Translations under genes and position numbers: made by a program
Source of the DNA: Candidatus Syntrophosphaera sp.
GTDB taxonomy: Bacteria > Cloacimonadota > Cloacimonadia > Cloacimonadales > Cloacimonadaceae
DNA length: 36,518 nucleotides
Direction of reading: 5' to 3'
Assembly (NCBI GenBank): GCA_019429425.1
Contig: JAHYIU010000011.1
Coordinates: forward strand, 1-36,518
Shown here: positions 12,606-35,970 of the stretch, piece after piece
Numbering within the stretch: position 1 is the first letter of the stretch
Layout: every line of letters starts with the position of its first letter
Notes under the pieces: generated by a model
What the model was told of the DNA's origin: nothing
Seen by the model: only the letters and a program-made list of their open reading frames with translations
The model's database searches: none

Positions 12606-12617
12606 CTCACCCTCCCT

Positions 12618-15500: not shown

Positions 15501-15510
15501 CGTCAAACCT

Positions 15511-16833: not shown

Positions 16834-17013
16834 TAACGCTCCCTTGGTCTCTTGCGAGTCTGGAATTTTTTTTTGTGTCCCACATTTTGAACCTGTCCAT
16901 ATCAGGCAAGTTTTTTTTTGGGCCACGGCCTCAGCAAGCCCTCCCGCACTTTTTGCCAGCGGAAAATCGGAGGATGATCACAAACACGGAGACGCAGAGG
17001 GTGGAACGCCCCA

Positions 17014-17448: not shown

Positions 17449-17534
17449 AACGGAGCCTGTATGCCCCCCCCCAACGGGCATTCAGACCTGAAGAGGCGGA
17501 TGATCATAGGCGGTGTGTGAAGCGGCCTTGGGGA

Positions 17535-18666: not shown

Positions 18667-18697
18667 TTGACAAAATCCGGGCGTTGGCAAATCTATC
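18667..18697 (+). promoter_or_regulatory. Possible dnaE promoter (-35 TTGACA; weak -10)
   Basis: TTGACA at 18667-18672 lies 50 nt before the dnaE start. The best -10-like hexamer, TCTATC at 18692-18697, is 19 nt away and poor. The position supports the 18723 start and argues against a longer N-terminus from 18684. Confidence 0.35.
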
Positions 18698-18722
18698 CTT
18701 TAAGAGAAGGGAGAGACCAAAG

Positions 18723-21700
18723 ATGTCTTTTGTACATTTGCATAACCATACGCAATACAGCCTTTTGGACGGCGCCTGCCGGGTGGACAGGATGGTGAAA
18801 CTGGCTGTGGAATACGGCATGCCGGCGGTGGCGATCACGGACCATGGCAACCTCTATGGCGTGATCGATTTCTATAAGTGCGCCAGCAAGGCCGGGATCA
18901 AGCCGATCATCGGCATCGAGGCCTATGTCATCAACGGCGAGCTGGACAGCGAGCACCACAAGAGCGACATCCGGCAGCATCTCGTTCTCCTGGCCAAGGA
19001 TTTCCAGGGCTACAAGAACCTGATGAAGCTCTCCTCGATCTCTTTCATCGAAGGTTTTTACTACAAACCGCGGATCAGCAAGAGCCTCCTGGAGAAATAC
19101 AGCGAAGGCCTGATCTGCCTCAGCGCCTGCGTCAAGGGCGAGATCCCCGCGCTGCTTCTGAACGGCAGGGCAGAGGAGGCCCGGGAAGCGATCAGCTGGT
19201 ACCAAAGAGTGTTTGGCGACCGTTTTTACCTCGAGATCCAAAACCACGGCCTGGACTCCGAAAAGGAGGTGATGCCGGTCCTCATCGCCCTGGCCAGGGA
19301 AATGGGCCAGCAGCTTGTGGTGACCAACGATTGCCACTACCTGCACAAGGAAGACTACGAGGCCCACGACATCCTGCTTTGCATCCAGACCGGCAAGGGC
19401 TTGAGCGAGCAGAACCGCCTGCACTACAACACCGACCAGCTCTATTTCAAGACCGAGGAGGAAATGCGGGAGCTTTTCCCCGACGTGCCGGAGGCTTATG
19501 AGAACACTCTGAAGATCGCGGAGCTGATCGACCTGGAGCTGGGGTATGACAAGTTTCTGCTGCCGGAGATCGAGACTCCGCCGGAATTTGAAGACATGGG
19601 CGCTTATCTCCGGGCCCTATGTGAAGAGGGGGCCAGGGAAAAATATCCCGAAATCTCTGATGAGGTCCGCTCCCGGATCGAATTTGAACTCGATGTGATC
19701 CATAGAATGGGCTTTGACGGCTATTACCTGGTGGTGAAGGACCTGATCGACAACGCCCGCAAGCAGGGGGTGCCCGTGGGGCCGGGACGCGGTTCCGGAG
19801 CTGGCAGCATCGTGGCCTATCTGCTGAACATCACCCAGATCGACCCGATCCGCTACGGGCTGATGTTTGAGCGCTTCCTCAACCCGGACCGGATCAGCAT
19901 GCCGGATTTCGACATCGATTTCTGCGCCCAGGGCCGGGGCAAGGTGATCGACTACGTGGTCCAGAAATACGGCCGCAACAGCGTTACGCAGATCATCACC
20001 TTCAGCACGCTGGGCGCCAAATCAGTGATCAAGGACGTGGCCAGGGTGCTGATGGTGCCAGCCAGCGAAGCGAATAACATCACCAAGACCATCCCCTACG
20101 GCAAAAACCTGGAGGAAGCCTATAAGGAATCCCCGGATTTCAAGCATCTGATCGACAACAACGAGCTCTATCAAAGCATCTACAAACACAGCCTGGTTTT
20201 GGAAGGATTGATCCGCCAGACCGGGATCCACGCGGCGGGACTGGTGATCGCGCCCGGCGACCTGACCGAATACATCCCCCTGACCTGCAGCACCCAGAAG
20301 GATGCCGACAACAACATCCTGGTCCAGTATGAAGGCAAATGGCTGGACGAACTGAAGTTTCTCAAAATGGACATCCTGGGGCTCAAGACCCTCACCTTGA
20401 TCCAGAAGACGGTGGACCTGGTGAAGCAGGCGCACAACATTGGCCTGGACGTGGAAAACCTGGACCTGACGGACAAGAAGGTCTATCAGCTGCTGGGGAA
20501 AGGGGAGACGGACGGCGTCTTCCAGTTCGAATCCGACGGCATGCGCAAATACCTGATGGAACTAAGGCCCAACATGTTTGAGGACCTGATCGCCATGGTC
20601 GCCCTGTTCCGGCCCGGCCCGATGCGCTTCATTCCGAACTACATCGCGCGCAAGCATAAAAAGGAAAAGGTCGAATACGACCATCCCATCATGGAGAACA
20701 GCCTGAGGGAAACCTATGGGGTCACGGTCTACCAGGAACAGGTGATGCAGATATCCCGGGAGATGGCTAATTTCACAGGCGGAGAGGCCGATTCGCTGCG
20801 CAAGGCCATGGGCAAAAAGAACCATGAGCTCTTGATGCGTTTCAAGCAGAAATTCGTCGAGGGAGCGACTGCCAACCAGGTGACCGAAAGGGTGGCGGAC
20901 AAGATCTGGCAGGATTGGGAGAAATTCGCTCAATACGCCTTCAACAAATCCCACGCCACCTGTTACGCTTTGGTGGCCTACCGCACGGCCTGGCTCAAAG
21001 CTCATTATCCGGTGGAATTCATGGCCGCCCTGCTTTCCCTGGAGGACGACCCCGCGGCAGTGCCGGTCAAGATCGAGGTCTGCAAGTCCATGGGGATCAA
21101 GATCCTGCCTCCCAACATCAACCGCAGCGACAAGGAATTCAGCGTGCGCGGCAAAGAGGTGCGGTTTGGCCTGAAGGCGATCAAGAACCTGGGCGAGGCG
21201 GCGATCAACGCCATCGTGGAAGACCGCGTGAAGAACGGCACCTACGGCAACATCTTCAATTTCTGCTCCCGGCTGGACAGCAGCGCGATCAACAAAACCG
21301 TGCTGGAAAGCCTGATCGCCAGTGGCTCGATGGATGAACTGGAGGGAACCAGGGCGCAGAAATGGGCCGTGATCGAACTGGCCCTATCTTTCAATACGGG
21401 AGCGCAAAGGGACAGGCGGATCGGGCAGACCTCGCTGTTTGACCTGATCACCTCAGACGAGTCCACCGAAGAGTATTATCCGCCTCTGCCAATCGAGGAT
21501 CCCTGGAGCTATGCCTACCAATTGGAAAAAGAAAAGGAAGTGCTGGGTTTCTACATGGGCGGGCATCCGCTCTATGAATACCGCAGCCTGATCCGGCACC
21601 TTACCAACGCCGACGCCAAGAGCGGCAAGGGCAAGGCGAACCAGGACCTGGTCTTGGCGGGGATCGTGACCGCCATTTCCCGCAAACGCGACGCCAAGGG

Positions 21701-22163
21701 TAATCCAATCGCCTTTGTGGAGTTCGAAGACCTGGCCGGCAGGTATGAAGTTGCGCTGTTCAACCACGACTACCAGACCCATTATCCCAAGCTGGCCGCC
21801 GGGAGCATCTTCTTTGTGTTCGGCACCAAATCCGGTTTCAACGGCAACGACGACAACCTGCTGCGGATCGTGCCTGCGAACCTGATCGCCCTGGAAGAAC
21901 TGCCCCAAATCCTGAAAGGTGAGATCCGGCTGAATATCAAACAGGAAAAGATCTCCCCAGAGTTGGTGGACGCGTTGGACCGCCTGACCCGCAAAGCGCG
22001 GGGTGGATTCACCCTCAAAACCAGCATCAGCAATGAAAACGGCGATGCCTACTTGCTGGAAGCCCAGAAAAAGATCTTTCCCCATAACGCCCTGCTTGAG
22101 TGGATGGAAGAGGAAAAGCTGGATTTCAGCCTCAAATTGAGCAGCGATGAGAAGAGCAATTAA
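18723..22163 (+). CDS. dnaE: DNA polymerase III alpha subunit
   Basis: This gene encodes 1146 residues from the ATG at 18723, with GGGAG upstream. A start at 18684 would add 13 residues with no family match and run through the -35 box. It is the replicative DNA polymerase catalytic subunit (DnaE1 type). The PHP domain at 1-270 has LHNHTQYSLLDG, AITDHGNLYG, IIGIEAYV, IQNHG and VTNDCHY. The polymerase core has GPGRGSGAGSIVAYLL (353-368) and the catalytic PDFDIDF (Asp397, Asp399). GIHAAGLVIAP and LFRPGPMRFIPNYI are conserved. The C-terminal part has helix-hairpin-helix and OB-fold regions. All PHP metal-ligand motifs look present, unlike in E. coli. It is followed by two overlapping GWxTD genes. 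Confidence 0.97.
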   Translation: MSFVHLHNHTQYSLLDGACRVDRMVKLAVEYGMPAVAITDHGNLYGVIDFYKCASKAGIKPIIGIEAYVINGELDSEHHKSDIRQHLVLLAKDFQGYKNLMKLSSISFIEGFYYKPRISKSLLEKYSEGLICLSACVKGEIPALLLNGRAEEAREAISWYQRVFGDRFYLEIQNHGLDSEKEVMPVLIALAREMGQQLVVTNDCHYLHKEDYEAHDILLCIQTGKGLSEQNRLHYNTDQLYFKTEEEMRELFPDVPEAYENTLKIAELIDLELGYDKFLLPEIETPPEFEDMGAYLRALCEEGAREKYPEISDEVRSRIEFELDVIHRMGFDGYYLVVKDLIDNARKQGVPVGPGRGSGAGSIVAYLLNITQIDPIRYGLMFERFLNPDRISMPDFDIDFCAQGRGKVIDYVVQKYGRNSVTQIITFSTLGAKSVIKDVARVLMVPASEANNITKTIPYGKNLEEAYKESPDFKHLIDNNELYQSIYKHSLVLEGLIRQTGIHAAGLVIAPGDLTEYIPLTCSTQKDADNNILVQYEGKWLDELKFLKMDILGLKTLTLIQKTVDLVKQAHNIGLDVENLDLTDKKVYQLLGKGETDGVFQFESDGMRKYLMELRPNMFEDLIAMVALFRPGPMRFIPNYIARKHKKEKVEYDHPIMENSLRETYGVTVYQEQVMQISREMANFTGGEADSLRKAMGKKNHELLMRFKQKFVEGATANQVTERVADKIWQDWEKFAQYAFNKSHATCYALVAYRTAWLKAHYPVEFMAALLSLEDDPAAVPVKIEVCKSMGIKILPPNINRSDKEFSVRGKEVRFGLKAIKNLGEAAINAIVEDRVKNGTYGNIFNFCSRLDSSAINKTVLESLIASGSMDELEGTRAQKWAVIELALSFNTGAQRDRRIGQTSLFDLITSDESTEEYYPPLPIEDPWSYAYQLEKEKEVLGFYMGGHPLYEYRSLIRHLTNADAKSGKGKANQDLVLAGIVTAISRKRDAKGNPIAFVEFEDLAGRYEVALFNHDYQTHYPKLAAGSIFFVFGTKSGFNGNDDNLLRIVPANLIALEELPQILKGEIRLNIKQEKISPELVDALDRLTRKARGGFTLKTSISNENGDAYLLEAQKKIFPHNALLEWMEEEKLDFSLKLSSDEKSN

Positions 22164-23262
22164 ACTTTCCCTGTTGCTTCTGCTGGCCTGCGCGGCACTG
22201 GGCGGGCAGGAACTGATCTACGAAAAGTATCCGGAGGGGGTGGACCTCTGGGTGCTGATACCCTATAATTCCCTGCTATTCAGGCAGGACGCGGACGCGG
22301 TCGAGTATCAGCTGACGCTCGAGATAAAAAACCAGGCGACCAGGCAGACCTGGAATTTCGAGCAAGTCATCCCCGTGCTGAAGAGGGATTGGCTGCAGAA
22401 CACCGCCCTGCCTGTGTACTTCCAGGCGGAGCTGGACCCCGGCAAGCATCAGGCCCTCCTGCGCTTGAAGAATCTGGCCACGGGCGGCAAAACCGACCTG
22501 AAACGGACATTCTCGGTGGGCGAGGCTTTCACTGAGATCGGCCAGCCCTATCTGCTGGTTTTGAAAGAGGGGATATCCTTCATTCCCTCCGATCTGGGCA
22601 AGCTGCCGGTCCCTGTGGAGAACTGCGGCATCAGGCAGAAATTCAGCGCGGCGATCGACAGCGTTCACATCACGCTGCGAGACAGCCTGCTCTATATTCT
22701 GAATCCCGAACGCGAGATCCGGAGCGACCTGACCCGGTTTGTCAACAACGACTCGGCCGGGAACCTTGCCATCAGCTTCTTTGAAGGGAATATCCGCTAC
22801 AACATGGCGCCCTTCCTCTTCAACCAGTGGTTCACCTACAACGCCCGCTACAGCTATAAGGAACAGATCCAGCAACTGCGCTACATCGCCAACCAGAACG
22901 AATGGAAGAGCATTCGCTCCGTTCCGGAGGACATGTATCAAGAGGTGATAGACCGGTTCTGGCAAGTGCATGATCCCAGCCCCGGAACGCTGCGCAACGA
23001 AGCCCGCGAAAGTTTCTACCAAAGGGTGATCACGGCCGATGAGCGGTTCACCGTCCACAAAAGATTGAAGGGTTGGAGCTCCGACCGCGGTAGAATATAT
23101 ATCAAGTACGGTGAACCGGACGAAATTTACAGTGAGGTCCATCCCATCGACCTGTATCCGTTCATAATCTGGTACTATTACGGCCAGAATCTGGAATTTG
23201 TGTTTTCCGACACGGGCGGATTCGGCCAATTCAGACTGAGGAACAAAGATGAGGAATATTAG
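22147..23262 (+). CDS. Secreted GWxTD-domain protein (first of two)
   Basis: This gene encodes 371 residues. Signal peptide MRRAIKLSLLLLLACAALG points to export; the Cys is not in a clear lipobox. The middle (about 30-230) is beta-rich. The C-terminus has the GWxTD-domain signature in variant form, GWSSDRGRIYIKYGEPDEIY, followed by WYYYGQNLEFVFSD. GWxTD domains are known from Bacteroidetes, Fibrobacteres and related phyla; their role is not established. The ATG lies inside the 3' end of dnaE (17-nt overlap) with only a weak ribosome-binding site, which suggests translational coupling. Function unknown. Confidence 0.85.
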   Translation: MRRAIKLSLLLLLACAALGGQELIYEKYPEGVDLWVLIPYNSLLFRQDADAVEYQLTLEIKNQATRQTWNFEQVIPVLKRDWLQNTALPVYFQAELDPGKHQALLRLKNLATGGKTDLKRTFSVGEAFTEIGQPYLLVLKEGISFIPSDLGKLPVPVENCGIRQKFSAAIDSVHITLRDSLLYILNPEREIRSDLTRFVNNDSAGNLAISFFEGNIRYNMAPFLFNQWFTYNARYSYKEQIQQLRYIANQNEWKSIRSVPEDMYQEVIDRFWQVHDPSPGTLRNEARESFYQRVITADERFTVHKRLKGWSSDRGRIYIKYGEPDEIYSEVHPIDLYPFIIWYYYGQNLEFVFSDTGGFGQFRLRNKDEEY

Positions 23263-24586
23263 ACGCGCTTTGCCGGCCATCCTGCTCTGCCTGGCCGGAG
23301 GACTGTTTGCCAACCAGCTGATCAACCTGCACGTGAGCTCGCAGCGCTTCCTGGACAGGGATGGCAACACGGTCATTCATATCGATTACCAGATACCCTA
23401 TGGCAATCTGGTCTTCCTGGCCCATAAGGGCGGCTATTTCGCGGAAGTGGACGTGACCGTGGATGTGGCTCGGGGCGACAGCGTCCTGTTCAGCCAGGCC
23501 ATCCGCGACAACATCGGGATCACCAACAAGGACGACGCTGGCTCGGGCAAATCTTACCTGAACCGGGTGAGCTATATGCTTGACAGGGAAAGCCCCTACC
23601 TTTTCCGGATGACCGCGACCGACCTCAACTCCCAAAGAACCGCAGCCTGGATGTTCTCAGCCAACAGCCTCGAACCCGATGCCGCGCTAAGCGATCTGGA
23701 ACTCTGCAGCCGGGTCTATCCGGACAGCAGCTCCTACCTGGGCAAGTTCCACCGGGGCAAGATGCTGTATCAAACCCAGCCTTCCCGGATCTTCGACAAG
23801 AATGTAAGCGACAACCTTTCCCTGTTCTTTGAGATCTACACGGCCCCGGACAAGCTGGGAGAATCAGCTTTACTGGTCCTGACCGTTGCCAAGGACAGCG
23901 TGCTGGTGCTGGACGATTTCATAGATTACACGCCCCAAAGCGAGGTGGAAGGGGTCACGCTCAAGATCCCCCTGATCGACCTGGCCCCGGGAAAATACCT
24001 TGGCTCATTGGAATACCAGCTGGATGAGGTCGCCACGGCCAGGGAGTTTGAGTTCTTTGTGACCGAGCCCCGCCAGGAAGTGAATTTTCTCTTCACGCAG
24101 CCTGACGATGATTATCAGCTGCTGAAGTATTTCCTGGGCGGCAGCGTCACCTCGGACTGGAAAAACTACGACGAGGCGACCAAGCGCAGGTATGTCAGCC
24201 AGCTGTGGAGAAGCCTCGCCAATTCCAGGTCCATGGGCATCCAGGACTTGATCGAGTTGGTCCGCGAACGGGTCGAATACGCCAACCGCTACTACGGCCA
24301 TTTCAATCCCGGCTGGACCTCCGACATGGGCAGGATCCACATCCGCAACGGCAAACCGGATGAGATCGACAAAGATACCACATCAGACGATACCCGCTAC
24401 GTGCGAAAGGATTACCAGATCTGGAAGTACAGGGGCAGGCTCAACGCTGTGTATTTGTTCGTGGACATCCAAATGAACGGGAACTACAGGTTGGTCTACG
24501 TCAAAAACGACGAAAGCGAAAATTCCAATCCCGATTACCTGAGATATTTGGGAAGTGACTTTGACACTTCAATTTTGGGCAATTAA
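23249..24586 (+). CDS. Secreted GWxTD-domain protein (second of two)
   Basis: This gene encodes 445 residues. Signal peptide MRNIRRALPAILLCLAGGLFA is followed by a beta-rich segment (FRMTATDLNSQRTAAWMFSA, FFEIYTAPDKLGESALLVLT). The C-terminal GWxTD motif is GWTSDMGRIHIRNGKPDEI, with QIWKYRGRLNAVYLFVD after it. It starts 14 nt inside the preceding GWxTD gene. The two proteins share the same domain layout but little sequence outside the motif, so they look like old paralogues that may act as a pair. Function unknown. The 96-bp gap after it shows no clear terminator. Confidence 0.85.
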   Translation: MRNIRRALPAILLCLAGGLFANQLINLHVSSQRFLDRDGNTVIHIDYQIPYGNLVFLAHKGGYFAEVDVTVDVARGDSVLFSQAIRDNIGITNKDDAGSGKSYLNRVSYMLDRESPYLFRMTATDLNSQRTAAWMFSANSLEPDAALSDLELCSRVYPDSSSYLGKFHRGKMLYQTQPSRIFDKNVSDNLSLFFEIYTAPDKLGESALLVLTVAKDSVLVLDDFIDYTPQSEVEGVTLKIPLIDLAPGKYLGSLEYQLDEVATAREFEFFVTEPRQEVNFLFTQPDDDYQLLKYFLGGSVTSDWKNYDEATKRRYVSQLWRSLANSRSMGIQDLIELVRERVEYANRYYGHFNPGWTSDMGRIHIRNGKPDEIDKDTTSDDTRYVRKDYQIWKYRGRLNAVYLFVDIQMNGNYRLVYVKNDESENSNPDYLRYLGSDFDTSILGN

Positions 24587-25078: not shown

Positions 25079-25106
25079 TTGACGGAAAATATGTCAATGT
25101 TATTAT
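25079..25106 (+). promoter_or_regulatory. Sigma-70-like promoter for the outer-membrane protein gene
   Basis: TTGACG (25079-25084) and TATTAT (25101-25106) are spaced by 16 nt, 38 nt before the start codon. The -35 box is part of TTGAC-N9-GTCAA (25079-25097), whose other arm is a minus-strand TTGAC. This could serve the divergent YraN gene or be a chance inverted repeat. Confidence 0.55.
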
Positions 25107-25144: not shown

Positions 25145-26245
25145 ATGAAAAGATTAGTTTTGAGCGTTATAGTTCTGGCAGCCACCTTTGGCTTGATGGA
25201 AGCCGCTCCGTTCCAGACTCTTGGACTGCTGCGGACGCCAGACGCGTATGTTTTACCCCACAAAGCGGCTGAATTGGTATTGGTAGGCTATTACCGCAAT
25301 GTTGAGGCCCCCAGTTACGTAGGTGACGAATACAACGGCTTCATTCCCTACGGCATGATCGGCGTGGGAATCCTGGACCGGGTCGAACTGGGATTCTTCG
25401 GGGGAGACGATGTCTATTTCATGAACGCCAAGCTGAAAGTTATCCAGGAGAGCGGCACCCTTCCCCAGATCTCTGTCGGCATGGACAACATATTCTCCCC
25501 GGTTAACAAGCACAGGGCGCAGGATTACAATCCTGATGATTATCCTGACATTGAATGGGCCGACCACCCGGACAAGGTTGACTACGAATACTACTCTCCC
25601 TATGTGGTGGCGTCCAAGCAGGCCGTGTTTGGGGGCTTGTCCTGGATGTTCAATCTGGGCTGGGGCCAAAACCGCTACACCGGCCAGGTTGCCCGTTCCA
25701 GGATCTTCAACGGCTTGTTCAGTTCCATCGAGATCTCGCCCTTCAAGGATTTTGCCATCCAGGGAGAATACGACGGCAAGGATTTCAACGCCGGATTGAA
25801 GTACACGGTCAAGAATTTCACTTTCCGGCTGGGCGGAGAAGCCCTTGAGGACCTGGCCAAAGGTTCTGAGGGAAATGGCTACGAGAAAAATCTCCGGCTT
25901 GCTTTTGGGGTTTCATACCTTTTTGACAAGTATGCCGAAGCGAAGCGTAGACCGGAACTTCGCCGCTATGCCCAGGATACGGACATGGACGGCACCAAGA
26001 TCGTGACCGGCGGAGAGATTCCCGTTGGCGTCACGGAATCTGGCACCTCTGTGTCCATTCTAACTCCCGGTACTTCTTTGCAGTCTCCTGGCATAGTTGA
26101 ATCAAGCTCATACAAGGAACTTTCTCCTGAAGTAAAGGACTTGCTGGCAGAACTGAGAAATCTTCGTGAAGAACGCCAAAAGGCGCAGAAAGCTCTTGAA
26201 GATCTGCGCAAGTGGTTGCAAGAGCTGCAGGAACAAAACAACTAG
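25145..26245 (+). CDS. Predicted outer-membrane beta-barrel protein with C-terminal coiled coil
   Basis: This gene encodes 366 residues from the ATG at 25145, with GGAGGG just upstream. A reading from 25052 begins before the promoter and was dropped. Signal peptide: MKRLVLSVIVLAATFGLMEA. Residues 20-290 show alternating beta-strand patterns typical of outer-membrane barrels: TLGLLRTPDAYVLPHKAAEL, AELVLVGYY, GILDRVELGFFGG, FAIQGEYDGKDFNAGLKY, FTFRLGGEAL, LRLAFGVSYLF. The end (about 325-366, LAELRNLREERQKAQKALED) is a coiled coil. The barrel start recalls YjbH-like proteins, but I cannot name a family. It lies upstream of the TPR/ExbB/ExbD block on the same strand; a hairpin and 152 bp separate them. 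Confidence 0.7.
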   Translation: MKRLVLSVIVLAATFGLMEAAPFQTLGLLRTPDAYVLPHKAAELVLVGYYRNVEAPSYVGDEYNGFIPYGMIGVGILDRVELGFFGGDDVYFMNAKLKVIQESGTLPQISVGMDNIFSPVNKHRAQDYNPDDYPDIEWADHPDKVDYEYYSPYVVASKQAVFGGLSWMFNLGWGQNRYTGQVARSRIFNGLFSSIEISPFKDFAIQGEYDGKDFNAGLKYTVKNFTFRLGGEALEDLAKGSEGNGYEKNLRLAFGVSYLFDKYAEAKRRPELRRYAQDTDMDGTKIVTGGEIPVGVTESGTSVSILTPGTSLQSPGIVESSSYKELSPEVKDLLAELRNLREERQKAQKALEDLRKWLQELQEQNN

Positions 26246-26253
26246 CCAAGTGT

Positions 26254-26346
26254 TCAATCACCCGTTGATTGATGTTGGTGGCCAATACGTTCATACTTCC
26301 CTTGAACAGGAAAGAGATCAGGATGCATCCCCGGCTGCATCCTGAT
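26254..26346. other. Two hairpins between the barrel protein and the large TPR gene
   Basis: An 11-bp perfect stem, ATCAGGATGCA / TGCATCCTGAT (26317-26327 and 26336-26346, 8-nt loop), and a weaker 7-bp stem (26254-26260 / 26266-26272) lie in the gap. Neither is followed by a T run, so they are not typical intrinsic terminators. They may attenuate or process the transcript, or bind a regulator. Confidence 0.5.
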
Positions 26347-26397
26347 ATCATAATAGCACGTGGTTGTTTCAACTTAGGACGATAAGTGAGCGGGGTT

Positions 26398-29300
26398 ATG
26401 AAAAATTACATAAAACTGTGTCTATTGCTAGTTTTGGCAGTGATGTCCATTGCTTTGACGCACGCCCAAACCAGTTATGAAACTGTCAGCACCCGAAGGG
26501 CCATTTATTCGGATCCCAAGGTCTGGGAAGCAATAGACTTTCTGAAGAACAGACTTCCACAAATGGTGGCTGAGGACAAGAACCAGGCCATAGAAGAGTA
26601 TTTGACCCATTTCGATGCTTTGAACAACCTTGACGAGCGGGATGTTCTTTATCTCGTTGGCCATGTGTACTCGGTTGTTGATGAACCAATAAAGGCGATT
26701 CCCTATTTTGAGATGTTGATCAACGACACCAGATTGGGGGAAGATGCCAGGCGCATGCTCAACCTTCTGCTTTACTATCGTTCAGTCTACCATCTTCTGA
26801 GTGAGGACAAAACAACAGCCAAGAGATTCCTGGAGGACGTGATAAACCTTTTTCCCACAGGCAGATATTACCCCACCTATCTGTTCCTGTGGGCGGATCT
26901 GATCTCAGAAAGTGAAGATCACGCAGAAGTAGCCAAATACATAGAAAACTATAATGCCAACCGTGACTGGATACAAAACACCTTCAAACCCCGCAAGGCC
27001 GCCATCGTTGATCGGATCGGCAATCTTGACCTGAACAGGTATTATCAGAATGTCAGCCTGGCGGAGTATTATGTGTTGGAAAGCTCCATCAATGCCATTC
27101 AAGCGGATCTGCAAACTCTGTACAACGAATTGAAGGCGATTCCCGGCCTGTTGACAGCCGAATCCCTGGAAAGGATAGCATCCGAAGAGTTCAGCCTCTT
27201 GGAGGAACTCAAAAAACAGCTTAGGTCTTATTCGTCTCCGCCGCCTTTGGATCTGGAAGCACTGGCTTCCGCCGATTTTCAGGACACGGACATGATCGTC
27301 TACAGCCAGTATCGGCAGGGAGCGATCCTCTTGCAACAGTTGAAAGGCACGGCGGAGTATTACGGGCTGGTGCTGGATATCATGGACCGGATCTTTGAAC
27401 AGCGGTATGAGCTGTTTGTGAAGGAAGATCCCTCCGTGGTCGGCAAAGGCTTCAGCGACATGGAGATGAAGCGGTTGTTCGACATAGAGCGCAACATCAA
27501 TCTGTATGTCCATGTCATCAGATCCATCGACGAGGTCATGGCAGATCCGGACTATGCTTCCCTGAACGTCGATATGCGTCCGGAGCGCCAGGAATACGTG
27601 GAGAAACTGGCCGACCTTCAGAACCGCAAGGACCGTTACCTGGCGTATCGCAAGCATCAGGACAGCGTGGAAGAGGCGGTATTCAACGAGCTTCTGGAAG
27701 AGTACTATGCCCTGAACCGGGAGAAGAATACTTTTGACGATCTATTGCCCCAGATCGAAGATATCATGGTCGCCATGATCAGGCAAAATTACCCCAGGGA
27801 GCAGCAGAGACTGATAACGGGCCAGCTAACCCTCACTGGGAATGTGATTGCCAGCAATCTGTCCGATGACAACCTCAATTCATTCCTGGCAAATCTCGAT
27901 TTCATCCATCTGCAGCTTGATTACCGTAACCTCCGTTATCGCGAGCAGCAGCGCCAGGCTTTGGCCGGGACGATCAGCGAGGAGGAAGCCCAGCAGCTCT
28001 ACAGTGAGATTTCGGCTGATAAAGCCATCCTGCTATCCCGGCACCAGGATTTCGTGGCCCAGAACCCCTACTTCCAAGCCTTGGAACAGCCCAGCGGCGG
28101 ATACCTGCTCAACAACGCCATCATCTACTACAACATGGCGGAGCTGCAACATGCCGTTGACCTGGACAATCCGGATCTGGCCCTGGACTATTACCGCAGG
28201 GTATTGCAGATCGATCCGGATTTCTTCCTGCGTGATTTTACCCTTTACAACGTTGCCTATCTCTCCAGCGAATCGGTTAAAGACAAACTGGACATTCAGA
28301 TCTCAGATTACAGGACCCAATACCCGAACAGAGACCGTCCGGAGAATCTCAAATACCGGGCCGCCATTTTTCAGGAAGCCCTGGACGCCTATACTGAACT
28401 GGCGGATTCCGGCAAATACGATGCTTCGCCCCTCCATGATGAAGCCGTGTTCCGGCTTGGTGTTTTGAACTTCCTGATCGGTTCGGATGCTGCGGAGCCG
28501 ATCGTATATTACACTGAGGCGATCGATCGGTTTGAAACGCTGGTCAACGAGCCGGACAGCGAATACAATTTTGAAGCCCTCTATCAAAGAGGCTGGGTCA
28601 ACATGAACAAGGGGGATGAGGCTTCGTTAAAAACCGCGATGTCCGATTTCGTTACCCTGATCAAGGCCGTTGACGAAGAGAGCATCGCCAATCAATACCT
28701 ATCCACGGATTTCAAGAACAACTCCATAGACAACATAGCCTATTCGTTAATAGCCTTGGACGGAGTGGATTTCAGGACCGAATCAAAGGGCGTGGAGGAG
28801 ATCCAGCTTGCCTTGGCCGACTATCAGGACCTGAAGGTCAAGACCAGGATCCTGGACAAGGCCGCCCTGCTCAAGGCGGACATGCAGGCGCCCCTGCAAG
28901 CAATCGACTTTCTGGAGCTGAGACTGCAGACGACACCTCTGGACCTGATCAATCCGACCATTGTTGATTCCATAATCAAGCTGTACCACACCCCCCGGCT
29001 GCAGCTGCGCCCCGGCTCCAACCTTGCGGCCATCCGCACTGAGAAGTACCAATACATAAAGGATCATTATCACAACGGTTCCCAATGGTATGAGCGGAAC
29101 ATCTGGAACAGGGACCTGACTTCTCAGATGGTTCAAGATCAGCTGGCGGTGATCAGGACCGCCTATGAAGAGATCAGGGTCCGCCGCTATAACAACCTGA
29201 TCACTACTGCCACCCAACTTGCGCTGGATGAGTATAAAGCGCATCTGGCTGATTTCGCTTCCTACCGTGAACTGTTTGGGGACGAATACGAGCAGTGGCT

Positions 29301-32289
29301 GGCAGACAATGAAAAGGCGGAAAATCTTCTCGTTACCGTGATGGCCGAAAAGAATGACTCAACTGTGGATTACATGCGGGCTGTGAACCGTTTGAAGGCG
29401 TTCAATGACGCCAATCCGGACAATCCTGATTTCTTCAATGATGAGGGTTTGGCCTACAAATACACTCAAAACATCTTCGAAATCATGACTCCCGCCTTTG
29501 CGGATCCTGGCTACGCTCCCGGGCCTGGATTGCCGGCCGATCGGGATGAACTGTATGAATTTTACCGCGATGGATCGCTGAGGTTTTACAATGTGCTGAA
29601 TTCGCCGGCTTACAGTTCAACGGCAAACCAGCAAAACTCGGCCCAGATCATGATGGACCTGGCTGAGATTGAAGTCGGCAGAGGCATGGCGGCCGAGGCC
29701 AGAACGCGCTTCTATACTATCCTTGAGAACGAAACCCAGCTGGACAGGGCCACCCTGCGCAGCGTTTACATCAGCCTGGCCAATATCGAAGAATCAGCCC
29801 GCAACTATACCCAGGCCGAAAAATGGTATCGTGAAGCTCTCAAATTCGCAAACAATACCAAGGACGCTGAGGAGATCGACTATCAGATCAAACTCCAGAT
29901 CCAAAACAATTATGAAATGGCCGAAGACAGCGGCAATTATGCTTTGGTGGCGAGTGAGTTTCTCCGCTTGGCGGATGAATATCAAAATGATCCTGACAAA
30001 TATGTGGGATACCGCTATCAGGCCTCAGAAGCTTACAAGAAGGCCAGTCTGTTCCAGGAGGCGATCGATCTTAAACTCGAAATGGCGGAAGCGAAAAATT
30101 CAATGGACGAAAAGTACTTCCTCTATTATGAAAGCTGGACGATTGCGGAATCATCATTGCGCGACGCTGACCAAGCCACCAGGCTCAAGAGCGATTTCAT
30201 TGCCATGTATCCCTCCAGCCGTTACGCTTTCAATCTGAGGGTGGAGGCGATAGAAAAACTGAAATCCGATCCCGTCCAGCGGGAGCCCGCGGCAAGGATG
30301 TACATCGACCTGCATGATGAGGTCAGGGCAGGCAGGATCGACAGCGGCGAGGTTGCCACCGAGGATATCTATCTTTGGGCGATCGAGATCTATCGCGAAG
30401 AGAAGAACCAGGACAAGATCGTCGAATTGCTGACCTATTTCACCCAAACATATCCTGATCACCCTCAGAACGTCAGTTTTCTGACCCTGCTGGCGGATGA
30501 ATATCTGGCCAGGGGCGATGAGGAGCGATTTGAATACTACTCGCGTGAAATTTACAGGAAGGATGGCAGCCAATCTGACCGCTATCTGACAACCGCAAGG
30601 CAAAACCTGGGCAGGATCGCCATCGAATTTGACGCTGCCTATGAGGATAAAAATTGGGATCTTGCCTTTGCCAAAAGGGACGAGTTCAAAAGGGTGGAAG
30701 CTCAATACATCAGTGAAGGCCTGTCGCTTGACAACTCACCCGCCTATGCGGCGTTTGCCTTTGCGGAGCAGGAATACAAGGAATATCAGGACAAACTTGC
30801 CTTCCTGCGGAACTTTGACCGCCAGCTGCGGGCGATAGAGCAGGGCGGTTTTTTGAGAAGCACACCCAACCAGTTGGTCATGGTCAACCCCAACACCACC
30901 TGGCAGAAGCATCTTTTTGGCGGAAAGCCCAACCGGATCCCCGGGCTCAGGGCCAAAGTTGAAGCCGAGTATAAAAAGGTCCTGGACCTTCTGGACCAGC
31001 CTGGATCGCACTATCTTGACAATGGCCGCCGCTTGAAAGCCTTATTGCTGATCGTCCGGATCAACGAATATGCAGCCGAGGTCATTGAAACCCAGGTCAG
31101 CAAGTACATCCAGGTTAGCAATGAAATCTACCCCTTCAAGGACAGAAGGCAGTTTACCCTGGCGCAGTACGAAGACCTGGTCAACAACCAGTTGCTGCCG
31201 TATGCCCAGGAATACAAAGACCTGTACTATGCCACCGCCAACGGCATCTATCTGGATATCTTCAAGAGCTATGCCTTGGGCGGCTATACGGACCAATACA
31301 CGGACCAGGCCGTAAGTGTGCTCAGGGCCAGGAACATATTGCCCAGCTTCGTTGAGGAGAGCGCTGCCCTGGATTCGAATTGGGAGCTGAGCCTGACGTC
31401 TCCCCAGGGTAATTTACGGAAAGTGAATTCTGGCATCTCGGCCACCACTTCGCCCCAAGGACAGACTTTATCGGTTTGTTCCATTCCCGCGGGTAATACC
31501 CTGACCTTGGAACGAGAGTTTACATTCAATGCCTCTCCAGAATTCGCGTTCCTGCATCTGGTCTATCCGTACGATCCTGAGATCTATGTAAATGGCAGCA
31601 AGATCGACCCGGTCTATATCCCGGTGGATACTCTGGTTGCCGGAAAGGCATCTTCAACCCGGTTCGCAGTCCGCCTGGGCGGCGATGTCTGGAGAGAAGG
31701 CCGCAATTCCTTCAAGGGCGTTTTTGCAAACAAAGCGGATGAACCATTGAACCTGCATTTCCACGCCAGCTTGTTCTACGACCCCGTGAAACTGGCTGAA
31801 AGCAGGTCCTATGAGACGACCAGTCTTTATTCCAACACCGATTGGATGGTGGTCACACAAGATACTGAGACTGGTGCGGAGATCAGGTCTGAAGCCATTC
31901 CAGCTGAGTTCTTCGACGTTCCCATCAGCACCCTGGAGTATATGACCAATTCAGCCGCTCAGGCCATCTGGGCAACCGAATCGCCCACAGAACTGCAAAC
32001 TGAAGTCACATTTGAAGTTACATTCCGGGCTGATGCCCAATACCGCAACGCCCTGCTGGATTTCATAGCTCCCGACAACGCGACCCTGTATCTGAATGGA
32101 ACGGAGTTTGCTTCCAATAGGCCCATGCAGTACGACACGGATCCCTTTGTGATCTATCCGACCCGGGTGGAACTGCCCAGGGATCTGGTCGTTAGCGGTC
32201 AAAACGTATTGCGGATCGTGGTTCAGAACATATCCCCCTACCGGGGTATGCTGGCCGAACTCAGCATCAACAAATACATCAAGGAGTAA
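26398..32289 (+). CDS. Very large periplasmic TPR protein with C-terminal beta-sandwich domains
   Basis: This gene encodes 1963 residues from the ATG at 26398; the GTG at 26386 is less likely. Signal peptide MKNYIKLCLLLVLAVMSIALTHA suggests export by Sec. Most of the chain is alpha-helical TPR-like repeat, for example LDYYRRVLQIDPDF, YQRGWVNMNKGD and ARNYTQAEKWYREALKFANN, with spectrin-like helical stretches between. The last 300 residues hold two jelly-roll-like beta-sandwiches with matching motifs, PEIYVNGSKIDP and ATLYLNGTEF, like galactose-binding or CBM domains. It is followed at 6-33 nt spacing or overlap by the ExbB/ExbD genes, so it is probably the load or scaffold moved by that motor. 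Function inferred only from context. Confidence 0.85.
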   Translation: MKNYIKLCLLLVLAVMSIALTHAQTSYETVSTRRAIYSDPKVWEAIDFLKNRLPQMVAEDKNQAIEEYLTHFDALNNLDERDVLYLVGHVYSVVDEPIKAIPYFEMLINDTRLGEDARRMLNLLLYYRSVYHLLSEDKTTAKRFLEDVINLFPTGRYYPTYLFLWADLISESEDHAEVAKYIENYNANRDWIQNTFKPRKAAIVDRIGNLDLNRYYQNVSLAEYYVLESSINAIQADLQTLYNELKAIPGLLTAESLERIASEEFSLLEELKKQLRSYSSPPPLDLEALASADFQDTDMIVYSQYRQGAILLQQLKGTAEYYGLVLDIMDRIFEQRYELFVKEDPSVVGKGFSDMEMKRLFDIERNINLYVHVIRSIDEVMADPDYASLNVDMRPERQEYVEKLADLQNRKDRYLAYRKHQDSVEEAVFNELLEEYYALNREKNTFDDLLPQIEDIMVAMIRQNYPREQQRLITGQLTLTGNVIASNLSDDNLNSFLANLDFIHLQLDYRNLRYREQQRQALAGTISEEEAQQLYSEISADKAILLSRHQDFVAQNPYFQALEQPSGGYLLNNAIIYYNMAELQHAVDLDNPDLALDYYRRVLQIDPDFFLRDFTLYNVAYLSSESVKDKLDIQISDYRTQYPNRDRPENLKYRAAIFQEALDAYTELADSGKYDASPLHDEAVFRLGVLNFLIGSDAAEPIVYYTEAIDRFETLVNEPDSEYNFEALYQRGWVNMNKGDEASLKTAMSDFVTLIKAVDEESIANQYLSTDFKNNSIDNIAYSLIALDGVDFRTESKGVEEIQLALADYQDLKVKTRILDKAALLKADMQAPLQAIDFLELRLQTTPLDLINPTIVDSIIKLYHTPRLQLRPGSNLAAIRTEKYQYIKDHYHNGSQWYERNIWNRDLTSQMVQDQLAVIRTAYEEIRVRRYNNLITTATQLALDEYKAHLADFASYRELFGDEYEQWLADNEKAENLLVTVMAEKNDSTVDYMRAVNRLKAFNDANPDNPDFFNDEGLAYKYTQNIFEIMTPAFADPGYAPGPGLPADRDELYEFYRDGSLRFYNVLNSPAYSSTANQQNSAQIMMDLAEIEVGRGMAAEARTRFYTILENETQLDRATLRSVYISLANIEESARNYTQAEKWYREALKFANNTKDAEEIDYQIKLQIQNNYEMAEDSGNYALVASEFLRLADEYQNDPDKYVGYRYQASEAYKKASLFQEAIDLKLEMAEAKNSMDEKYFLYYESWTIAESSLRDADQATRLKSDFIAMYPSSRYAFNLRVEAIEKLKSDPVQREPAARMYIDLHDEVRAGRIDSGEVATEDIYLWAIEIYREEKNQDKIVELLTYFTQTYPDHPQNVSFLTLLADEYLARGDEERFEYYSREIYRKDGSQSDRYLTTARQNLGRIAIEFDAAYEDKNWDLAFAKRDEFKRVEAQYISEGLSLDNSPAYAAFAFAEQEYKEYQDKLAFLRNFDRQLRAIEQGGFLRSTPNQLVMVNPNTTWQKHLFGGKPNRIPGLRAKVEAEYKKVLDLLDQPGSHYLDNGRRLKALLLIVRINEYAAEVIETQVSKYIQVSNEIYPFKDRRQFTLAQYEDLVNNQLLPYAQEYKDLYYATANGIYLDIFKSYALGGYTDQYTDQAVSVLRARNILPSFVEESAALDSNWELSLTSPQGNLRKVNSGISATTSPQGQTLSVCSIPAGNTLTLEREFTFNASPEFAFLHLVYPYDPEIYVNGSKIDPVYIPVDTLVAGKASSTRFAVRLGGDVWREGRNSFKGVFANKADEPLNLHFHASLFYDPVKLAESRSYETTSLYSNTDWMVVTQDTETGAEIRSEAIPAEFFDVPISTLEYMTNSAAQAIWATESPTELQTEVTFEVTFRADAQYRNALLDFIAPDNATLYLNGTEFASNRPMQYDTDPFVIYPTRVELPRDLVVSGQNVLRIVVQNISPYRGMLAELSINKYIKE

Positions 32290-32295
32290 CCGGAA

Positions 32296-32598
32296 ATGAA
32301 GCATACAGTTTTAATCATCCTGCTCCTTCTGGGATTGGCACAAATTCATGCCCAGGTGATGGACGCCCCGCGCGTGGGATTTGAGGATGTCCAACTATCC
32401 CGCGCGCCTCAAGAACTGGAGATCCAGATCAAAGCAATGATCCCGGATATCAGCGTGATCCAGATCAAAACAGACACCTACGCTAAACCCGGAGACTATA
32501 AATACTCCATCAATCTTGCTGTGATCCAGTCAGAAAGCGGAAGACAGCTCACAAATTGGCAAAATGAAATAAATAAATGGCTTGAGGAGTCAAAATGA
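32296..32598 (+). CDS. Small secreted protein of the ExbB/ExbD cluster
   Basis: This gene encodes 100 residues. Signal peptide: MKHTVLIILLLLGLAQIHAQ. The mature part of about 80 residues (APQELEIQIKAMIPDISVIQ, KPGDYKYSINLAVIQSESG) has no motif I recognise. The stop overlaps the exbB start (ATGA at 32595-32598), so the two are translationally coupled. It may be a periplasmic accessory of the motor. The sequence looks coding and complete. Confidence 0.65.
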   Translation: MKHTVLIILLLLGLAQIHAQVMDAPRVGFEDVQLSRAPQELEIQIKAMIPDISVIQIKTDTYAKPGDYKYSINLAVIQSESGRQLTNWQNEINKWLEESK

Positions 32599-33356
32599 AA
32601 GCTAAACATATCGTTCTCGTAATAATGGTTCTGTTGATCAGCATGGGCGCCCTGTACGCACAGGCAGACCTGGCTGGCGCAGAGAAAGTGAACCTTTTCA
32701 CGATCTTCCGGGATAGTAATGCCAATGGATTCTTCGGATACCTGATCCTGCTGACCTTCATCGTCGGCATCGTCTACGCGGCGATCCGCTATTTCCAACT
32801 GTACCAAAGGGAAAAGGTCAACGCCGGCAATCTATACAAAAACCTCAAAGGTTACATCAAGAATGACCAGATCGACGAGGCCATCAGGATCACGGACCAA
32901 CTCAAGGAAACCACCCTCGGATTCATCTTCTGGAGCGGCCTGTCGGTCTATCGCGATGTCCGCAAGAATGCCCGGGGCGAGGAATTGAACACCCAGGTGC
33001 AGAACGCGTTTGACGAAGCGGTCCTGCAAAAGGTCTACAAGCTCGATGCCGGGTTGTTCTGGTTCGATACCCTGGCCCAAGTCTGCACATATCTCGGCCT
33101 CCTGGGCACGATCTGGGGGCTCTTGTATGCCTTCGCGGCCTTGAGCAGTCCCGAGATCCTGGACAGCGAAAAGAACATCAGGCTTTCCGCCGGCATCAAG
33201 ATCGCCATCGGCACCACCGCGCTCGGTTTGATGGCGGCCATCCCGCTCACCCTCATCAAGGGCGGGCTGCTGTCCAAAGCTCAGCGCATCATCAACGAAA
33301 TCGACGAATACAGCGTAAAACTGATCAACTTCATCAATATCTCAGCAAAAGGATAA
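32595..33356 (+). CDS. ExbB/TolQ/MotA-family proton channel protein with N-terminal signal extension
   Basis: This gene encodes 253 residues. The N-terminus MKAKHIVLVIMVLLISMGALYA looks like a signal sequence, followed by a short periplasmic stretch. Three membrane helices follow: about 48-67 (YLILLTFIVGIVYAAIRYF), about 158-182 (VCTYLGLLGTIWGLLYAFAA) and about 200-224 (IKIAIGTTALGLMAAIPLTL). LLGTIWGLLYAF and TTALGLMAAIP are the ExbB/TolQ signatures. Such proteins form pentameric channels around two ExbD helices and convert proton motive force to mechanical work on the outer membrane or periplasm. The two exbD-like genes follow directly. Confidence 0.92.
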   Translation: MKAKHIVLVIMVLLISMGALYAQADLAGAEKVNLFTIFRDSNANGFFGYLILLTFIVGIVYAAIRYFQLYQREKVNAGNLYKNLKGYIKNDQIDEAIRITDQLKETTLGFIFWSGLSVYRDVRKNARGEELNTQVQNAFDEAVLQKVYKLDAGLFWFDTLAQVCTYLGLLGTIWGLLYAFAALSSPEILDSEKNIRLSAGIKIAIGTTALGLMAAIPLTLIKGGLLSKAQRIINEIDEYSVKLINFINISAKG

Positions 33357-33360
33357 TACC

Positions 33361-33894
33361 ATGGCATACCGTCCTTCAGCCGGAAGGAACCAAATGGCCT
33401 CATCGGTCCCCAAGATACCGAATCTGGTGCCGATCATGAACCTGTTTCTCACCATCATACCGTTCCTGATCCTGATGCTGGTGATCACCCAGGTGGCATT
33501 GGTCGCCTTCAACTTCTCCGAAGGCACCACCGTCGATCCAGATCGGGCCGGTGGCGGTGGCGGATTGAAGAAAGAATACCCGGAAATAACTGTGATCATC
33601 ATGGCCTCAGAAAACTCCATGCGGACCACATTCCCAGGATTTGAGATACGTGAACCGGGTAATCCGCCTGATTCTTTGGGTTTGATCCGGGGCCAATACG
33701 ATTACGTTAGGCTCGACCAGACCCTCAAGCTCATCAAGGATCGGTTTCCCGGCTTGAAGGATATCAGTGTCGCTGCCTATGATGACGTTCTCTATGAAAA
33801 CCTCATCAAAACCATAGATATTTGCAGGAGCAACGATTTCTCCAGCATCCACTATAAAGCGCCTCAGGTCAGATATTACAGCAGGGGGGTCTAA
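33361..33894 (+). CDS. ExbD/TolR-family protein lacking the membrane Asp (first of two)
   Basis: This gene encodes 177 residues. One membrane helix (about 24-50) starts VPIMNLFLTIIPFLILMLV. In ExbD, TolR and MotB the position after this Pro carries the proton-binding Asp (typically PFIDVMLVLL); here it is Asn27. A Gly-rich linker (DPDRAGGGGGLKKEYPE) leads to a periplasmic domain (YDYVRLDQTLKLIKDRFPGL, ISVAAYDDVLYENLIKTIDI) of the ExbD type. AAAGGA precedes the start. It overlaps the second exbD by one base. It is probably a structural partner that does not carry protons itself. Confidence 0.85.
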   Translation: MAYRPSAGRNQMASSVPKIPNLVPIMNLFLTIIPFLILMLVITQVALVAFNFSEGTTVDPDRAGGGGGLKKEYPEITVIIMASENSMRTTFPGFEIREPGNPPDSLGLIRGQYDYVRLDQTLKLIKDRFPGLKDISVAAYDDVLYENLIKTIDICRSNDFSSIHYKAPQVRYYSRGV

Positions 33895-34448
33895 TGAGCC
33901 ATCTGATGAACTCCAAAACCATGAATCGCCGGGTCCGCAGGAAGCTGGAGACCACGGCGGAATTGTCCATCATCTCCCTGGTGGACATTCTGACCATCCT
34001 CCTGGTTTTCCTGATCAAGAACGTCTCCATGGAAGCGCAGAAGTATACAATGCCCAACAACATGACCTTTCCGGTCACCATGCAAAAGCACGACCTGCTG
34101 GAGAACAAAGGCACCACCGTGATCCAGGTTTACACGGACAAGATCCTGGTGGGCGAGGAAGGTTTGTATTTTGGCTCGCTGGAGGAGTTTGCGGCGGATG
34201 ACGTCAAACGCGACGAGATCCTTCGCTACCTGCAAGTCACAGCCCAGGAAATCATCAGGGACACGGATGAGACCGGACGCCCCAAAACCCCTGCGGCCTT
34301 GTTGATCCAAGCCGACAGATCCATACCCTGCTGGTACATCACTGAATTGGTCAAACTCGGTACCAGCTCGTATCACGAATACATTTATTTTGCCACTCTC
34401 CTGGAATCAGATTGGCTTCAGCGAAGTAGATCAGCGTCCAGCGGGTAA
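33894..34448 (+). CDS. ExbD/TolR-family protein with the membrane Asp (second of two)
   Basis: This gene encodes 184 residues. A basic N-terminus (NRRVRRKLE) precedes a membrane helix (about 25-42) with SLVDILTILLVFLI; Asp31 is the expected proton-binding residue. The periplasmic part has TVIQVYTDKILVGEEGLYFG and AALLIQADRSIPCWYITELV, the ExbD fold (QAD motif), and ends with a variable tail. The start codon shares a base with the previous stop (TAATG). With the Asn-bearing first ExbD it could form a heterodimer in the ExbB channel. Confidence 0.88.
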   Translation: MSHLMNSKTMNRRVRRKLETTAELSIISLVDILTILLVFLIKNVSMEAQKYTMPNNMTFPVTMQKHDLLENKGTTVIQVYTDKILVGEEGLYFGSLEEFAADDVKRDEILRYLQVTAQEIIRDTDETGRPKTPAALLIQADRSIPCWYITELVKLGTSSYHEYIYFATLLESDWLQRSRSASSG

Positions 34449-34458
34449 AGGAGGTATG

Positions 34459-35915
34459 ATGGCAAATAAAATTCTCAACCTGAAACTGAGCTACCGGGGA
34501 AAACAGCTGGATACCATCAAACAAGGCTCGGACTTTGTCAAGAAATGGTATATCGGCAGGGATAAACGCATCTTCTGGCACGTGCTGGATGACTCGAACA
34601 CCTTCCCGCCCAAGCATCAGTTGCTGGTAAAACGCGGCAGTGACTATTACCTCCAGCTACCCGCAGGATCAAGTATCAGCTGCAGCAAAGACAACAACCC
34701 CGTGGATGCGGCATTCCTGCAGCAAAACGGCATCCTGCAGGGAACGCAACTCAAACTGCGCAACGATATGGGCGGCACCGTCCAACTGCACCCGGACTAC
34801 GCCGTGGAGTTTGGATACACGGATCAGGTCTTGCCAGTTCTGGGCCTCAAGGAACAGGCCATTGTGGCTGATTGTGCCCAAGCGCCCTCCCTTTCCACCG
34901 TGGAACGCACCAACCGGGGACTCATCCTGCTGTTTCTGATCCTCGGCCTGGCCTTTATCCTGATCTACGATATCGTCCTCAAACCCCAGTCCACTGCGGA
35001 AAGGTCGCTTTCGGAAATGCTGGCCCAAATGGAACGGGCACATCGGATCGTGCCCCAATTTGGCGAGCAATCCCAGGATGTTGTGGAACCCTTTCAGAAT
35101 GATGTGCAGGAACCCCAAACCTATACAACTGGCCAAGCGGCCAGGAGAACCACCGCGGAGCCGTCCAGGCCCCGTTCGGCCCAGGCCGTTTTTGGCGATC
35201 TGGCCACTCCCGGCACTGCGGGACGGGACCGCGGCGCCTACCAGGCGACTGTCCTGAACGAATTTGTGACAGCCAGGCCCGGCAGCAGGGGGGGGGGAAC
35301 GGGACCGGTTTTTCCACTGGCGGACCGGGTGGTGAATACACACCCAGCGCCGGAGCCGGTTATGCCGGGACCTTTGACCCCGCCGCGACAGCGGGTTATA
35401 CACAAACGGAGCTTGGCCAGGTGGTCACCGGCAGAACACCCACCGGCGGGACCACCGTCAGGCCAAACATACCGGTGGAATCATTCACCGGCGACGCGGC
35501 CAAATTGCGCCAGCTCGCTCCGGAAAACGTGCCCATTGCCCAGACGCCCCAGATAGAAAGGATCAAACGCAGTTTCCAGGCCCAGGAAGTGACCACCCTC
35601 TCCGAGGCCAGCATCGCCGGTTCTGCCGCTGCCCGGGGTACGGACATAGACAACATCTATGAGCAGCTGAACCACCGCAAGGGGCAGATCAAGCAATCCT
35701 ACATCAGAAACTCAGCCATCCAGGCCTCCTCCGGCTCCATCACCGTCATCATGTACATAGACGGCGACGGCAGCGTCGTGGCCGACATCATCCCCAACAG
35801 CGCCACCTTCACCCAAAGCTTCCTCCAGGAAGTGAAGACCATCGTGGAGAACTGGCGTTTCAACGTTAGCAAGAAAACCAAATACCAATTCCAAATGCGC
35901 CTCAGCCAAAGCTAA
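34459..35915 (+). CDS. FHA-like/TonB-type protein with AgmX/PglI C-terminal domain, frame-interrupted in a G10 tract
   Basis: If rejoined the product is about 485 residues; the start at 34459 has GGAGG 5 nt upstream. Residues 1-130 look like a cytoplasmic FHA-like beta-sandwich (WYIGRDKRIFWHVLDD, KHQLLVKRG, YYLQLPAG). A membrane helix spans 154-174. Then a Pro/Gly/Thr-rich periplasmic linker leads to a TonB-like AgmX/PglI domain: HRKGQIKQSYIRNS, GSITVIMYIDGDGSVV, VKTIVENWRF. Upstream and downstream parts are in different frames. The switch (-1) falls in the G tract 35288-35297, and both sides look coding. Read straight through, the first frame would end at 35556 without the TonB domain. It may be phase variation, slippage or an assembly error. 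Confidence 0.85.
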
Positions 35916-35939
35916 ACGACATTTGCAAGAACAATAGGG

Positions 35940-35970
35940 GCCCCGTTCATCAGGACGGGGCTTTTTTTTT
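35940..35970 (+). terminator. Rho-independent terminator after the TonB-like gene
   Basis: A 7-bp GC stem (GCCCCGT / ACGGGGC, 8-nt loop) is followed directly by nine Ts, 24 nt after the stop codon. It closes the plus-strand block that starts at 25145 or 26398. Confidence 0.92.

Follow-up and report, generated by a model that had tools for sequence, protein, structure and literature searches.

An ExbB/ExbD/ExbD/TonB-like motor locus with a giant TPR protein in Candidatus Syntrophosphaera: gene order, conservation and likeness to the Agl-Glt core complex

What an inner-membrane motor of ExbB, two ExbDs and a TonB-like transducer does beside a giant exported tetratricopeptide repeat (TPR) protein, and whether this combination has a known counterpart, is the question raised by contig JAHYIU010000011.1 (C11) of Candidatus Syntrophosphaera sp., phylum Cloacimonadota (assembly GCA_019429425.1). 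The window, that is, the whole analysed stretch of 36,518 nucleotides, is one contig of a 2.38-Mb genome that is 99.7% complete, and seven genes at 25145-35915, running from a YjbH-like gene to the transducer, probably form an operon. The genetic tie between a dedicated motor and the TPR giant is well supported, and the motor block appears to be built, and may work, like the Agl-Glt core complex of Myxococcus xanthus, the closest known system. The features on which the argument turns are, in 5' to 3' order:

25145-26245, + strand: YjbH-like protein of 366 residues with a signal sequence, first gene of the probable operon (Pfam YjbH, E=3.5e-5)
26398-32289, + strand: TPR giant of 1963 residues with a signal peptide (TPR_12, E=5.7e-9)
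31351-32286, + strand: two C-terminal jelly-roll domains of the TPR giant, resembling galactose-binding domains or carbohydrate-binding modules (CBMs), at about residues 1652-1794 and 1805-1960
32296-32598, + strand: small secreted protein of 100 residues, signal sequence recognised by inspection
32595-33356, + strand: ExbB/TolQ-like subunit of 253 residues (Pfam MotA_ExbB, E=9.5e-20)
33361-33894, + strand: ExbD1, 177 residues, with Asn27 (codon 33439-33441) replacing the proton-binding transmembrane Asp (Pfam ExbD, E=2.7e-4)
33894-34448, + strand: ExbD2, 184 residues, with transmembrane Asp31 (codon 33984-33986) kept (Pfam ExbD, E=2e-6)
34459-35915, + strand: GltG-like transducer, predicted to combine a forkhead-associated (FHA) domain, a transmembrane helix, a Gly-rich linker and a TonB/AgmX-type C-terminal domain; its ATG lies at 34456 or 34459
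35288-35297, + strand: run of 10 G, where the transducer frame changes; G-runs in the transducer genes of relatives do not exceed 6
35936-35965, + strand: intrinsic terminator ending the operon, a 13-pair stem followed by 9 T

From the TPR giant to the transducer the genes are separated by 6, -4, 4, -1 and 7 nt, and the 60 nt around the terminator fold with a minimum free energy of -27 kcal/mol (z = -6.5). An earlier sequence-only reading had described a closely spaced block closed by a strong terminator and holding a 1963-residue exported TPR protein, a small secreted protein, ExbB and two ExbDs; the spacing, the hairpin, the reading frames and the Pfam matches bear it out on each of these points. 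Its block began at the TPR gene, and here the limit moves upstream to include the YjbH-like gene.

The association is conserved far beyond this genome. Among the 57 Cloacimonadota loci of a genome scan, the order TPR-ExbB-ExbD1-ExbD2-FHA is kept in all 39 with enough sequence, and a YjbH gene lies directly upstream of the TPR gene in 36 of 37. An open reading frame of 70-168 residues with a signal-like start separates TPR from ExbB in 56 of 56 loci, Fermentibacterota included. Because this order is conserved across the phylum, chance is excluded; the sequence-only reading had asked whether relatives keep the order, and since they do, its proposal of a dedicated motor tied to the TPR giant is well supported. 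Three Fermentibacterota loci (L113, L124 and L140) retain the full YjbH-TPR-small-ExbB-ExbD1-ExbD2-FHA series, a Myxococcota locus (L172) has TPR-small-ExbB-ExbD-ExbD-FHA/TonB, a Fibrobacterota locus (L175) has OmpA-OMP-TPR-ExbB-ExbD-ExbD-TonB and lacks the FHA part, and two further genomes (L173, L174) carry TPR-TPR-small-ExbB-ExbD-ExbD-TonB or part of it.

The two ExbDs differ at the residue on which proton flow depends. ExbD2 has Asp in all 41 aligned Cloacimonadota sequences and in 62 of 62 genome-scan loci (61 counted, L127 read by eye); ExbD1 has Asn at that position in 41 of 41. The pattern used for ExbD1 in the genome scan, [ND]LxPIMNLF, forces the Asn; to escape this bias, nine outside genomes were searched from ExbB instead, and paired ExbD operons found only in this way have Asn/Asp (L149, L152) or Cys/Asp (L151, L153), while the ExbDs of single-ExbD systems in the same genomes keep Asp. 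Counterparts of ExbD1 in other phyla have Asn or Cys, and the asymmetry extends to the related loci of Fibrobacterota and Myxococcota.

In the ExbB alignment the pore-region threonines T172, T207 and T208 are invariant, and the motifs LGLLGTI and GTTA are kept. The 25 ExbBs of asymmetric operons from several phyla group in a single clade (96/99), separate from the TonB-type ExbB of the Syntrophosphaera genome, and the Fibrobacterota clade neighbours that of Cloacimonadota (88/85). That TonB-type ExbB belongs to a separate operon (L177, C8:18000-33000) with a Plug-containing receptor, ExbB, two ExbDs that both keep Asp (SMSDIAFLL) and TonB; the genome therefore has its own TonB-receptor set, and the motor operon is not its housekeeping Ton system. 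The C8 operon continues with a 1024-residue secreted protein and then a PorV-like protein. We advance tentatively, as somewhat short of an even chance, that the axle is obligately asymmetric: one Asp-bearing and one Asp-less ExbD would stand together in the ExbB pentamer (5:1:1), so that each axle would have only one proton relay and a step cycle unlike that of a symmetric 5:2 motor. Such an axle would mark a clade, found in Cloacimonadota, Fermentibacterota, Fibrobacterota and part of the Myxococcota, whose motors are dedicated to surface machines of the TPR/FHA/TonB type. The Asp/Asn split of the paired ExbDs is a testable departure from the symmetric 5:2 model.

Equally relevant is the protein that would carry the work of the motor outward. 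Pfam finds no FHA match, either in the protein of the window or in any of 36 orthologue rows, and the evidence for this domain is structural: in an AlphaFold model of the intact orthologue L129 (475 residues; pLDDT above 90 for the N- and C-terminal domains) the chain runs from a beta domain through a transmembrane helix (145-172) and a disordered arm (about 196-340) to an alpha/beta domain at the C-terminus. In the PDB, the beta domain finds FHA structures with probability 1.00 (5a8i, 3po8, 2lc1 and dozens of others), and the C-terminal domain finds those of TonB proteins (9dc4_T, probability 1.00; 5lw8). For the tail, sequence agrees weakly: at E<=0.01 the AgmX/PglI model recognises 29 of the 36 members, with the window protein and L129 below its curated cut-off. 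The transducer is thus predicted to consist of an FHA domain, one transmembrane helix and a TonB-like C-terminal domain. The FHA-TM-TonB architecture read from the window sequence is therefore upheld by the orthologue model, but not as a single open reading frame in the window and not, for FHA, by sequence. The transducer resembles GltG/PglI, whose architecture (FHA-TM-TonB) it fits; GltJ, named in the sequence-only reading for its AgmX-type C-terminus, was considered and set aside, with only one weak NCBIfam GltJ match.

The TPR giant is a fusion of two exported TPR proteins: other families of the phylum have two adjacent genes in its place (about 670 and 1450 residues), both starting with signal sequences, and the junction falls near position 490 of a 1910-position profile. 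One genome (G117) has two motor operons, L061 and L062, and the L062 type, also seen at L071 and L076, is a divergent paralogue that has a YjbH gene of its own and TPR genes in two pieces. In an AlphaFold model of residues 1500-1963 (464 residues, mean pLDDT 90) a helical stretch leads into the two jelly-rolls, for which Foldseek finds in the PDB chiefly enzymes active on carbohydrates and CBM or jelly-roll proteins (probability about 1.0, low whole-chain TM-scores). By fold resemblance the ends may be called sugar-binding-like; the "sugar-binding-like ends" of the earlier reading are thus retained for the C-terminus only.

The remaining exported parts are smaller. The secreted protein between TPR and ExbB contains a conserved short strand-like motif, of the VKVEIRKPDN type in many loci, EEITIRGELRTPQ in Fermentibacterota and VEGRIQKPQAF in L172, which could act like a TonB box. 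The YjbH-like protein, predicted to be an outer-membrane beta-barrel, has a heptad-like (coiled-coil) C-terminal tail in the alignment, and 9 of 18 of its homologues match Pfam YjbH.

The closest described counterpart of this set is the Agl-Glt core complex, or Group B, of M. xanthus: aglR, aglQ, aglS, gltC, gltD, gltE and gltG (Luciano et al. 2011, PMC3169522). Outside Deltaproteobacteria, Fibrobacter included, the Group B genes form one locus, and two-hybrid tests found that AglR binds GltG (PMC3169522). Common to both are ExbB, two ExbDs, an FHA-TM-TonB transducer and exported TPR proteins in one locus; furthermore, the M. xanthus G1 order TPR (gltD), TPR (gltE), small exported protein (gltF), FHA-TonB (gltG) parallels TPR-A, TPR-B, small protein, motor, FHA-TonB here. 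The earlier remark that the combination was not known as a named system is accordingly only half right, the Agl-Glt core complex having already brought this set of parts together under one name (PMC3169522). Several differences stand beside the likeness. The TPR pair is fused here and bears two terminal jelly-rolls, a YjbH-like protein precedes it, the FHA domain has diverged beyond the reach of Pfam, and ExbD1 has Asn, whereas both ExbD-type subunits of M. xanthus, AglQ and AglS, are reported with Asp (PMC9389320), a trait that is not taken here to define the complex; an AglQ with the substitution D28N loses proton conductance, and motility is lost with it (PMC3858216). New here are the occurrence of all parts in a single operon in both Cloacimonadota and Fermentibacterota, the joining of the TPR proteins into one giant tipped by jelly-rolls, the linkage of a YjbH-like gene, and the constant pairing of an Asp-less with an Asp-bearing ExbD.

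Three further systems share parts of the plan. Fibrobacter succinogenes FSU_2396-2403 and its Fibrobacterota relatives (L138, L175) have the order TPR-ExbB-ExbD(Asn)-ExbD(Asp)-TonB/AgmX, but their transducer is shorter and lacks FHA, and OmpA plus another outer-membrane protein replace the YjbH-like gene; FSU_2400-2403 (ExbB, two ExbDs, TonB) and the neighbouring TPR and OmpA proteins are raised on cellulose (PMC6851124). The Agl-Nfs spore-coat machine, likened here by its published description, joins the AglRQS motor to the GltG paralogue NfsG and moves a complex bound to surface glycan; Agl drives this movement of the glycan-bound Nfs complex on M. xanthus spores (PMC3858216), although the machine is sporulation-specific and not encoded in one operon. 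In the TPR-TolQ-TolR-TolR-vWA loci of the Planctomycetes-Verrucomicrobia-Chlamydiae (PVC) group (PMC12204202) a TPR gene is followed by an ExbB/TolQ-like gene, a heterologous ExbD/TolR-like pair and a transducer of transmembrane, linker and globular parts, which ends in vWA with no FHA reported, whereas the transducer here ends TonB-like.

Taken together, these comparisons suggest, with moderate confidence, a trans-envelope machine on the Agl-Glt core plan, driven by the proton-motive force, that pulls or moves an outer-membrane complex bound to glycan or adhesin. In such a machine ExbB would form an inner-membrane pentamer around an axle of two different ExbDs, of which only ExbD2 would carry the proton-binding Asp, and the work of this putative heterodimeric axle would pass to the adjacent single-helix transducer. 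The cytoplasmic FHA domain of the latter may serve as signal or scaffold input, and its long, disordered, Gly-rich arm would cross the periplasm and bring the TonB-like domain into contact with periplasmic and outer-membrane partners. Candidates for these partners are the small secreted protein, which may offer a docking peptide resembling a TonB box, the TPR giant in the role of a scaffold, and the YjbH-like protein as the presumed outer-membrane barrel. Assembly of the complex, transfer of force and a glycan load would follow the analogy of Tol, Ton and Agl systems, where proton flow through ExbB/ExbD energises cyclic contacts between TonB-like domain and outer membrane (PMC5349195). Because of the jelly-roll ends and the similarity to YjbH, together with the Nfs and Fibrobacter cellulose precedents, handling of surface glycan or adhesin in the manner of Nfs or Glt is most likely, and is favoured over nutrient import. 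What the Agl-Glt core complex does outside myxobacteria has been a question since 2011, and the operon described here supplies a complete version of it, kept by most members of a phylum and, with its gene order unchanged, by Fermentibacterota, in which each layer of the envelope has a candidate part.

Several observations weigh against this machine as drawn. The likeness of the TPR proteins to GltC, GltD and GltE is one of protein type and gene order, and their orthology is putative; a jelly-roll fold is no proof of sugar binding; and the YjbH-like protein scores just under the Pfam YjbH cut-off. In this assembly the transducer occupies two frames, 34459-35556 and 35421-35915, and the frame change at the 10-G run is either an assembly error or slippage; in relatives a single open reading frame holds both halves (48 of 54 and 36 of 39 loci). 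Moreover, the system is not universal: ExbD1 is matched in 81 of 125 phylum genomes by single sequence and in 90 by profile, about 80 of them strongly, so that roughly one third lack a strong match.

Whether the motor might instead stand in for Tol-Pal, as a motor-driven outer-membrane tether or constriction device, is a live question, given how rarely TolB is found in the phylum: TolB_N was not found in the genome itself and is weakly matched in 3 of 125 phylum genomes, which suggests that Cloacimonadota have no standard Tol-Pal system. The motor operon is widespread in the phylum, and among solved structures the ExbB profile fits TolQ (E=1.7e-21) slightly better than ExbB (E=1.7e-17). Yet a divergent TolB could be missed by a search that covered TolB_N, Pal and CpoB not being searched; many genomes lack both TolB and the motor operon, and neither FHA nor a giant TPR protein nor YjbH is typical of Tol-Pal. 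We therefore regard such a substitute as unlikely, if less so than the next two readings.

Nutrient import of the TonB type, with the YjbH-like or small protein in the substrate path and the TPR and jelly-roll domains binding sugars, would draw on the ExbB/ExbD/TonB-like parts and sugar-binding-like domains that are present, and cellodextrin import was proposed for FSU_2400-2403 by the Fibrobacter authors (PMC6851124). It is improbable here: the operon contains no TonB-dependent receptor plug, Plug matches in the genome lie only on C8, C9 and C54, the one on C8 adjoins the separate ExbB-ExbD-ExbD-TonB set, and a cytoplasmic FHA domain and a TPR giant are atypical of Ton systems. A true gliding motor like that of Myxococcus, to which the core parts and layout matching Group B of the gliding machinery would point (PMC3169522), has a similarly slim chance. 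Luciano et al. themselves judged the core complex alone unlikely to drive motility (PMC3169522). With the Pfam models used, neither MglB (Robl_LC7) nor a small GTPase resembling MglA is found, the only match to the latter lying in an 883-residue frame; the AgmX-tail search, the sole one made for Group A, gave no second AgmX-tail protein besides a TonB; and we found no report of gliding for Cloacimonadota in the literature. With neither MglB nor an MglA-like protein found, gliding is unsupported, as is the cell-surface movement entertained in the sequence-only reading.

Two further sites bear on the limits and control of the operon:

25079-25106, + strand: promoter-like site TTGACG-16-TATTAT upstream of the YjbH-like gene, with TG before the second hexamer
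26317-26346, strand not assigned: 11-bp inverted repeat ATCAGGATGCA...TGCATCCTGAT, without a T-run on the coding (+) strand

The former is a consensus match only, one of 11 such sites in the region where 8.9 are expected by chance. The latter lies in the 152-nt gap between the YjbH-like and TPR genes, where a hairpin is present and no clear + strand terminator is seen; it could possibly be regulatory. A search of the region for known RNA families found none.

Upstream lie a DnaE gene (18684-22163) and, directly after it, two genes for GWxTD-domain proteins (22147-24586, + strand; TIGR04514, E=6e-29 and 1.5e-17), which in many Cloacimonadota are conserved neighbours upstream of the motor operon. 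They are kept out of the operon because 550 nt, in which a separate promoter-like site lies, divide them from it. Along the contig, homopolymers of 8-10 G or C occur at 17464, 18231, 35288 (the 10-G run of the transducer gene) and 36103. On the - strand, 11571-16926 and 8415-11208 hold an Rnf/Nqr electron-transport set (RnfC, RnfD/E-like, FMN-binding, Rnf-Nqr membrane subunit and Fe-S protein) and a glycine dehydrogenase of the two-subunit form.

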